The position numbers and the translations under genes are program-made. Below, piece by piece: positions 25,255 to 26,954 of a DNA stretch of 64,000 bases. A model generated the notes under the pieces. It did not search any database, had not been told where the DNA came from, and was given only the letters and a program-made list of their open reading frames with translations. Positions within the stretch are counted from its first letter, which is position 1. Each line of letters opens with the position of its first letter. Source of the stretch: Armatimonadota bacterium (GTDB lineage: Bacteria; Armatimonadota; Fimbriimonadia; Fimbriimonadales; ATM1). The stretch spans positions 62,001 through 126,000 of the forward strand of contig QEUM01000002.1 of assembly GCA_003577165.1 (NCBI GenBank). The letters run 5' to 3'.

Positions 25255-26142
25255 ATGCCGAAGTACCTCGGCATCGACTGTGGCGGAACTCGGACGCGCG
25301 CCGTCCTCGTCGAGCCGGACCGGGCCGTATGGCGCGGCGAAGGAGGGCCGATCAACTTAGCCTGGAGTTCGCCCGATCAAGTGGCGAACACGCTAAAAGA
25401 GATCCTTTCCGATTGTCCGGCGCCCGACTCTGTGTGCGGGGCGTTTGCGGGTCTGCTCGGGCCGGATTCCGCCAACCTTGCGGAATCTGTGCTTCGCGAT
25501 GTCACAGGAGCCAGCAGTTGCGTCGCCGTCGCCGACTTCGTCGCTGCTTTCGAGGCGAGCGAGGGAATTGACATCTGCGTGATCGCCGGTACTGGAAGTC
25601 TCATCTGCAGCCGCTCTGCGAGGGGCGACATCGTCTCGTCCGGCGGACGAGGATACGTGCTGGGCGACGAGGGCTCCGCTTTCCAATACGGCCGGGAGGC
25701 GCTGCTGCACTTCCTCGACGCGCCTCCTGATGACGTGAGCGCGGAGCTGCGTCGCGCAGTCGAAGAGATCTTCGGAACGCTCAAAAAGAACGAGGTTATC
25801 TCTCGTCTGTATGGAGAGGCGAATCTGGTCACTCGACTCTCCAAGCTCGCCTGTGCGTTCGATCGCGACGCAGGGTCCGGCGCGATCTACGCTCTGAAGG
25901 CTCTGAGAATTCATCCCGCGAAGCTTGCGCACCGCGTTTCGATGCACATCCGCGATCACCATCAGCAAACGACGCGCCTCACCATTGGCTGCCGGGGGGG
26001 AGTGTGGAACAGCGCGAGCATTCGTCGCGCATTCATCGAGCTGTTGGCCTTCTGGTGCCCCTCCCACGCGCTCGAGACCGTGTTTGAATTGCCGGAAGCG
26101 GTGCTCGGAGCCGTGAGCATTGCGAAGAGGGCATTGCGCTGA
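25255..26142 (+). CDS. BadF/BadG-type sugar kinase (N-acetylglucosamine kinase-like)
   Basis: A 295-aa ASKHA-fold ATPase. Phosphate 1 motif is GIDCGGTRTRAVL, phosphate 2 is CVIAGTGS, followed by the RGYVLGDEGSAFQYGREAL stretch typical of bacterial N-acetylglucosamine/muramic acid kinases. It reads directly into murQ, so it probably phosphorylates amino sugars recovered from the wall. The stop codon overlaps the proposed CTG start of murQ. The gene is divergent from miaA with a 31-bp gap. A different hexosamine substrate is possible. Confidence 0.85.
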   Translation: MPKYLGIDCGGTRTRAVLVEPDRAVWRGEGGPINLAWSSPDQVANTLKEILSDCPAPDSVCGAFAGLLGPDSANLAESVLRDVTGASSCVAVADFVAAFEASEGIDICVIAGTGSLICSRSARGDIVSSGGRGYVLGDEGSAFQYGREALLHFLDAPPDDVSAELRRAVEEIFGTLKKNEVISRLYGEANLVTRLSKLACAFDRDAGSGAIYALKALRIHPAKLAHRVSMHIRDHHQQTTRLTIGCRGGVWNSASIRRAFIELLAFWCPSHALETVFELPEAVLGAVSIAKRALR

Positions 26143-26954
26143 ACACGGAATCTCCGAATCCACGGTCTGGGTCCTTGTCGCAGATGAGCGCGGCAGAGAT
26201 CATGGAACTCATGTGCGAAGAGGATCAGCGAATGCTCGCCGCCGTTCGAGCGGCCCTTCCCCAACTGTCCACCGCCTCCGAGATGCTGGCCGTCGCGATC
26301 CGAGACACGAAGCGCATCGTCTTCGTTGGCGCAGGGACGAGTGGCCGAATTGCGGCCATGGAGGCGGCCGAGTGGCGACCGACATTTGGAGTCGGAGAGG
26401 AGCAGGCGCGGGCTGTGGTGGCTGGCGGAAGCCCTTCACTCGCGTCGAGCGTCGAAGGCGCGGAGGACGACCAGGAGGCGGCCCGAGAGGCTGTTCGCTT
26501 GGCCGTGCTGGCGGATGGTGGCGTCCCAGGATGCATCGTCGCGGTTTCAGCGAGCGGCGAGACGCCGTTCACGGTGGCCGGAGCCGACGAGGGCCGCCGA
26601 CTTGGGACGAAGGTGATTGGCGTTGCCTGTAATCCAGGCAGTTCGCTGCTTCGGGCAGCGGATTGTCCGGTGCTTCTCGATACTGGGCCGGAGGTGGTCC
26701 GCGGGTCGACTCGCCTCAAGGCAGGAACTGCCCAGAAGATCGCGCTGAACATGATCTCGGTCGCCGCGATGTGCGCCGCTGGGCGAGTGCTCGGTGATCG
26801 GATGTCGCACATGACGCCCGTCAACAGGAAGCTTCGCGACCGAGCCATTTCCATCGTCTCCGAGACTCTCGGAATCGACAGAGGCGCGGCTGAGGAACGG
26901 CTGACGAATTGCGACTGGAATCTGCCGGCGGCCCTCGGCGTGACACGCGAGTAA
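26139..26954 (+). CDS. murQ: N-acetylmuramic acid 6-phosphate etherase
   Basis: A SIS-domain etherase that splits MurNAc-6-phosphate into GlcNAc-6-phosphate and D-lactate during cell-wall recycling. Motifs are FVGAGTSGRIAAMEAAEW, VEGAEDDQ, AVSASGETPF and GSTRLKAGTAQKIALNM. The only usual start is TTG 26175, but the frame just upstream encodes NTESPNPRSGSLSQ, which matches the family's conserved TESRNP N-terminus. No ATG, GTG or TTG precedes it. CTG 26139, overlapping the kinase stop and 8 nt after GAAGAGGG, is therefore my preferred start (271 aa). ATT 26133 is an alternative. Confidence 0.9.
   Translation: MNTESPNPRSGSLSQMSAAEIMELMCEEDQRMLAAVRAALPQLSTASEMLAVAIRDTKRIVFVGAGTSGRIAAMEAAEWRPTFGVGEEQARAVVAGGSPSLASSVEGAEDDQEAAREAVRLAVLADGGVPGCIVAVSASGETPFTVAGADEGRRLGTKVIGVACNPGSSLLRAADCPVLLDTGPEVVRGSTRLKAGTAQKIALNMISVAAMCAAGRVLGDRMSHMTPVNRKLRDRAISIVSETLGIDRGAAEERLTNCDWNLPAALGVTRE

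Follow-up and report, generated by a model that had tools for sequence, protein, structure and literature searches.

In an Armatimonadota bacterium, the gene for MurQ, the N-acetylmuramic acid 6-phosphate etherase, follows a sugar kinase gene on the same strand, and direct reading of the MurQ frame confirmed an earlier observation that it contains no ATG, GTG, or TTG upstream of a TTG at position 26175. A gene caller restricted to these three codons would shorten MurQ by 12 residues and drop an invariant glutamic acid. The question is, then, at which codon translation of this murQ begins. We addressed it in the window, that is, the whole 64,000-nucleotide stretch analysed (G000:C8:62001-126000), which belongs to a genome of 2.75 Mb in 23 contigs (G000), and in the relatives of this genome.

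The kinase-murQ junction and its candidate start codons

The features of the locus are collected in Table 1. The best solved-structure match of the kinase is 8zo3 (N-acetylmuramic acid/N-acetylglucosamine kinase, 1.5e-11), and its match to the solved "Putative novel MurNAc kinase" 8ow9, which we infer to be a Tannerella forsythia protein, is weak (2.4e-4). The MurQ frame lies at -1 relative to the kinase and, after a TGA at 26085, is open from 26088 to 26954. Its product belongs to the MurQ family by NCBIfam PRK05441 (2e-83; 279.9 bits, cut-off 168; residues 2-266), and two more MurQ models score below their cut-offs (PRK12570, 239 of 255; TIGR00274, 236.8 of 302). E78 and E109, which we take to be the two glutamates proposed as catalytic from work on E. 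coli MurQ, are invariant in 47 MurQ sequences, the window included. Because the kinase is, among solved structures, most like a MurNAc/GlcNAc kinase, the two enzymes probably act in series. Genes for a MurNAc kinase and a MurQ etherase that carry out consecutive steps also stand together in murTKQ of T. forsythia; unlike the present pair, murTKQ is given no start-codon peculiarity in the part of its description available to us (PMC10465942). In-frame fusions of a BadF-type kinase with MurQ occur in an Armatimonadetes MAG, SKYB36 (L041 927-2837, 637 aa), and in a Hydrogenedentota MAG (L047 3-1706, 568 aa).

Table 1. Features of the kinase-murQ locus in window coordinates. Duplex, pairing with the 16S 3' end of the same genome in kcal/mol.
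Feature	Position	Strand	Remarks
BadF/BcrA-family sugar kinase gene, likely MurNAc/GlcNAc kinase	25255..26142	+	stop TGA 26140-26142; Pfam BcrAD_BadFG 3.4e-14
GAGG, Shine-Dalgarno core	26127..26130	+	8 nt before CTG 26139, 2 nt before ATT 26133
ATT, alternative start, less likely	26133..26135	+	SD spacing 2 nt; shared start here in 0 of 80 other loci; duplex -3.9
CTG, proposed murQ start codon	26139..26141	+	CTGA overlap with kinase stop; 79 of 81 order-level loci (window included) have ATG or TTG here; duplex -6.3
murQ, N-acetylmuramic acid 6-phosphate etherase	26139..26954	+	271 aa counted from CTG
Codons of residues 2-12, NTESPNPRSGS	26142..26174	+	missing if translation starts at TTG 26175
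TTG, first standard start codon in frame	26175..26177	+	without SD core; duplex -3.9
ATG, residue 16, possible internal start	26184..26186	+	Met in 77 of 80 relatives; duplex -5.6, only GGG at 12 nt

The codons of the MurQ frame before 26190 that differ from ATG by at most one mismatch are ATT 26088, ATT 26133, CTG 26139, ACG 26145, TTG 26175, and ATG 26184, so that a start upstream of TTG 26175 would be near-cognate. The original prediction admitted only CTG 26139 or ATT 26133; this list was incomplete, ATT 26088 and ACG 26145 being near-cognate as well, and the picture is unchanged by them. CTG is favoured over ATT 26133, a codon that is not conserved and has its SD only 2 nt away. As had been predicted, both the CTGA at 26139-26142, a four-base stop/start overlap in the right frame with the geometry of an NTGA pair, and the GAGG 8 nt upstream were read directly.

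The 16S rRNA of G000 ends with GGATCACCTCCTTTA and carries the anti-SD CCTCC. The SD of the CTG is modest, its duplex energy of -6.3 kcal/mol being reached by 20% of 4000 random positions of the window. A relaxed initiator tRNA or an altered anti-SD was considered and rejected: a typed, canonical initiator-tRNA pattern with GGGCTCATAACCC, searched with up to 3 mismatches allowed, gave one match in G000, which was exact, and this tRNA has the canonical GGG/CCC anticodon stem pairs.

How telling CTGA is in this genome was judged from a sample of 464 kb, made up of the window and 20 further stretches of 20 kb each, in which 409 coding frames were called by a home-made codon score. At the 57 same-strand junctions that combine a TGA stop with a downstream frame at -1, the overlapping codon was ATG in 23, GTG in 14, CTG in 10, and TTG in 10; at other-frame junctions TGA was most often preceded by C (8 of 16). 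Since CTG stands at 10 of the 57, the CTGA overlap alone is weak evidence for a CTG start. What identifies CTG 26139 as the putative start is its aligned position together with the conserved N-terminus, not the overlap. At three of the ten CTG junctions, namely murQ, C4 97381, and C1 122612 (the last two given in strand coordinates of the joined stretches), the interval between 75 nt upstream and 29 nt downstream is devoid of ATG, GTG, and TTG; at C4 97381 and C1 122612 an ATG at +30 or +36 is a possible start. The first standard codon lies more than 30 nt past the upstream stop at 13 junctions, among them murQ, C1 21357, C1 122612, and C18 48042. Further near-cognate starts in G000 are conceivable.

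The MurQ N-terminus and its start position in relatives

With an HMM built from 80 order-level relatives, the window excluded, the CTG form of MurQ (271 aa) scored 291.7 bits, a gain of 19.6 bits over the form starting at TTG 26175 (272.1), and the form starting at ATG 26184 scored 269.5. None of 3000 random N-termini, used as a control, reached 291.7 (median 275.6, best 286.7). The expectation that the frame upstream of the TTG encodes the conserved start of MurQ proteins is borne out by this gain. The PRK05441 alignment begins at residue 2 of the CTG form, as do the alignments of two sequences of solved structure, 4lzj (N-acetylmuramic acid 6-phosphate etherase, 1.6e-52) and 1nri (HI0754, 1.7e-52), both of which pass through TE..NP.S. 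A structure-based alignment of 47 of the 91 available sequences (window plus 90), drawn from several phyla, shows Glu4 to be invariant and Thr3 to be conserved in at least 90%. The AlphaFold2 model of the 271-aa protein has a mean pLDDT of 94.9 (87 over residues 1-10), and the N-terminus is accordingly predicted to be ordered. The codon-usage signal before the TTG was uninformative (LLR -3.4 across 29 codons that partly overlap the kinase).

The start codons of relatives were compared, as had been proposed. The MurQ search covered 121 genomes, of which 113 belong to the order. A strong match was obtained in 84 of the order-level genomes, and 81 loci including the window were examined, leaving out G054 (not fetched), G101 (in two pieces), and G107 (truncated by the end of its contig). 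From outside the order, the MurQ loci L032-L064, L084, L122, and L123 were read and kept outside the counts (G118 was not fetched). The shared start falls exactly at CTG 26139, and the aligned codon is ATG in 64 loci, TTG in 15, CTG in one (the window), and ATC in one (G066). The window has the only CTG among the 81; to call initiation there unusual was right. The kinase and murQ overlap by 4 nt (NTGA) in 31 of these loci and by 11 nt in 28, and no kinase was matched in 7. Some relatives within the order have further in-frame start codons upstream (for example, L076 an ATG at -3 codons, L023 several), position 0 being the one in common. A relative with ATG at another position was to have counted against the CTG; such cases were found only outside the order, in more distant phyla, in which the nearest candidate start often lies 2-9 codons further upstream.

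CTG at 26139 is known from one genome, and there is no same-genus genome among the 120 relatives. A pattern scan of the 113 order genomes for CTG followed by the full MurQ N-terminal motif gave 0 matches, with a pattern that required Arg at residue 6 and that the window itself, with Pro there, is unable to match. Apart from the window, the readable MurQ genes of the same family have ATG in 3 of 3, and the tree groups the four.

The second genome without a standard codon at the shared position, G066 (L012, G066:C6 2293-2295, minus strand), has AAAGGAG, 7 nt, and then ATC GCA ACT GAA GCT CGG AAT CCA CGC. The SD duplex of this ATC is -11.0; upstream of it in frame there are only another ATC and a stop, and the first standard start is an ATG at residue 16. 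At the shared position, the closest relative of G066 MurQ (84.5% identical) carries ATG; G066 MurQ keeps all 88 conserved columns, being itself among the 77 rows that define them. Because G000 and G066 are far apart in the tree, the loss of a standard start at the kinase-murQ junction probably happened twice. Among the order-level loci, SDs are stronger before the 17 murQ starts other than ATG than before the 64 ATG starts (Mann-Whitney p 1.5e-8), and the same holds for the 12 non-ATG compared with the 16 ATG starts within the 11-nt overlap class (p 5.5e-6), both values ignoring shared ancestry. These stronger SDs resemble the compensation reported in the part of PMC5622118 available to us.

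How the junction may have arisen and how it may be translated

The reading that we consider likely is that an ATGA junction became CTGA and that MurQ starts with fMet at CTG 26139 by coupled initiation. In the ancestor, the kinase stop TGA would have overlapped a murQ ATG, and an A-to-C change would have produced CTGA without changing the kinase, in which CGA and CGC both encode Arg. This is the simplest history because ATG occupies the shared start in other family members and relatives. Ribosomes ending the kinase would already be on the junction, helped by the GAGG, and would restart on the CUG with the initiator tRNA, presumably by reinitiation, leaving MurQ with its fMet and its conserved TE motif. 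It is the anatomy of the junction that points to translational coupling of the kinase and murQ.

The CTG is probably a weak start that IF3 disfavours, since both the initiator tRNA and the anti-SD of the genome are canonical and its infC is without ATG, GTG, or TTG. CUG gives about 0.86% of the expression of AUG in E. coli (PMC11497404) and makes up about 0.024% of annotated bacterial starts (PMC11497404, PMC9845219), and in one survey 2 of 61,358 reconstructed AUG starts had switched to CUG (PMC5622118), as stated in the parts of these sources available to us. On the first two of these figures, the MurQ yield per kinase would probably be lower than in relatives, CUG being a poor start discriminated against by IF3. 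The suggestion that the CTG keeps the MurQ level low is plausible by analogy with the E. coli data.

Among the alternatives, a sequencing or assembly error at 26139, where the true base would be A, T, or G and the start an ordinary one in an NTGA overlap, is in our judgement unlikely. The assembly in 23 contigs, the lack of a same-genus genome, and the ATG of the readable family relatives would fit such an error. However, the frame and the flanking features are intact, a C is unremarkable at what is a wobble position of the kinase and is found before TGA at half of the other-frame junctions sampled, and G066 shows a non-standard codon at the same position in a second genome.

Another possibility is that MurQ starts inside the frame, at TTG 26175 or ATG 26184, and that the TES.NPRS codons are an untranslated relic. 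These two are the first standard codons in frame, and the duplex before ATG 26184 is near that of the CTG. The window also differs from the family consensus at residues 6, 11, 12, and 14; residue 6 is Pro in the window and Arg in 79 of 80 relatives, and residue 14 is Ser in the window and Asp in 75 of 80. Nevertheless, erosion is no greater at the N-terminus than in the rest of the protein: of the conserved columns, the window retains 6 of 8 within residues 1-15 and 54 of 80 beyond them. There is no well-placed SD core before either codon, an internal start would give up the near-invariant Thr3 and the invariant Glu4, and G066 is the only one of the 80 other order loci without a standard codon at the shared start. 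We regard an internal start as improbable.

We give the same low probability to the idea that murQ is decaying, that the loss of its ATG was an early step, and that little or no MurQ is made, an idea that overlaps with weak initiation at the CTG. No end branch in the tree is longer than that of the window MurQ (2.58; median 0.24; family members 0.84-1.27); the bootstrap of this tree is not settled, and in it two long branches, L002 and L067, come together, which leaves their pairing within the family unsure. Full MurQ was also not found by genome search in four of the eight family genomes (G001, G004, G006, and G007), two of which are less than 90% complete and two 97% complete; murQ may have been lost repeatedly in the family. 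Given this branch and these four genomes, some relaxation of constraint on the window MurQ is possible. On the other hand, the frame is intact across 271 codons. Three of the 31 columns that are invariant in the other 80 sequences have changed, which speaks for decay, but the changes (Y62F, D75E, and T159V) are all mild, and the 20 columns invariant in the 47 aligned sequences, E78 and E109 among them, include the window. The window MurQ has an identity of 0.428, averaged over 70 relatives, which is only slightly lower than the 0.452-0.483 of the ATG-started family members. In the comparison of the kinases, 72 of 74 sequences were kept by length, L066 being one of the two dropped.

Production of MurQ as a kinase fusion by -1 ribosomal frameshifting at the end of the kinase, with no initiation at all, is very improbable: the in-frame fusions L041 and L047 give it a precedent, but the last 60 nt of the kinase contain no X XXY YYZ slippery heptamer, the fold energy of the RNA from 26100 to 26190 is ordinary (z -0.16), and standard start codons stand here in 79 of 81 order loci.

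A wider conjecture, which extends coupled initiation at the CTG to the whole order, is that termination-reinitiation supplies the ribosome and the kinase-murQ start is therefore free to drift, that standard starts were lost independently at least twice, that non-ATG starts acquired stronger SDs, and that these genes come under IF3 control together with infC. We consider it doubtful. If it were true, the recycling of cell-wall sugars would be tied to translation status.

A probable near-cognate start in infC and comparison with known systems

The gene for IF3, infC, is present in G000 (L126), and the part of its frame that runs from the upstream stop to the IF3_N domain is free of ATG, GTG, and TTG. 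Behind GAGGTG and 19 codons before the Ile-Asn of the domain stands an ATA (L126 about 1429; G000:C1 about 138165), at which infC probably starts. Since infC lacks a standard codon upstream of IF3_N, near-cognate initiation in G000 seems to extend to at least one gene besides murQ. The infC check in relatives gave loci from 30 of the 104 matching order genomes, of which 16 were read and 14 were unread, a single strand having been searched. In addition to the G000 locus, nine of these loci, from families f1 and f4, have ATA, ATT, or ATC 15-17 codons upstream; four of the nine also have an ATG just before Ile-Asn, and one has a GTG at Ile-Asn. Six loci of family f2 are less clear, with ATT, ATC, or ATA 6 codons upstream and, in one, a GTG at 8.

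A near-cognate start behind an SD would be common to infC and murQ. infC belongs to the translation machinery and is autoregulated; murQ, a metabolic gene, is not known to be linked to IF3. A CTG start, as proposed for murQ, is rare, but it is a known kind of thing. The infC start is ATT in E. coli and ATC in Streptomyces, and IF3 represses near-cognate starts in both, according to the available part of PMC5472188. The same source describes sigR of Streptomyces, in which a GTC start was shown experimentally to hold the protein below its partner; for murQ the same idea is only proposed, and its CTG is private to one of the genomes examined. Coupled NTGA (-4) pairs, as described in the portions of PMC6728339 and PMC12548453 available to us, share with kinase-murQ the geometry, the SD inside the upstream gene, and functionally linked neighbours. 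The present pair differs from them in that N is C; CTGA was not found in the portion of PMC6728339, nor CUG in that of PMC12548453. In the literature on MurQ, the kinase, overlap, and translational coupling, and under the name of the etherase with start codon, we found no report of a non-AUG murQ. The locus offers a comparative case in an overlapping pair that, together with the second loss (ATC), would help to ask whether coupling relaxes selection on the start codon.

Two further observations were made in G000. On the minus strand of L161 (17383-18735; G000:C1:117383-118735), a frame of 450 codons has its first standard codon about 60 codons in; by eye it carries BNR/sortilin-like repeats, and either a frame-shifted gene, of which it would be the 3' part, or an assembly indel may account for it. 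In L166 (1124-1216; G000:C4), ARAGORN called a selenocysteine tRNA with the anticodon tca.
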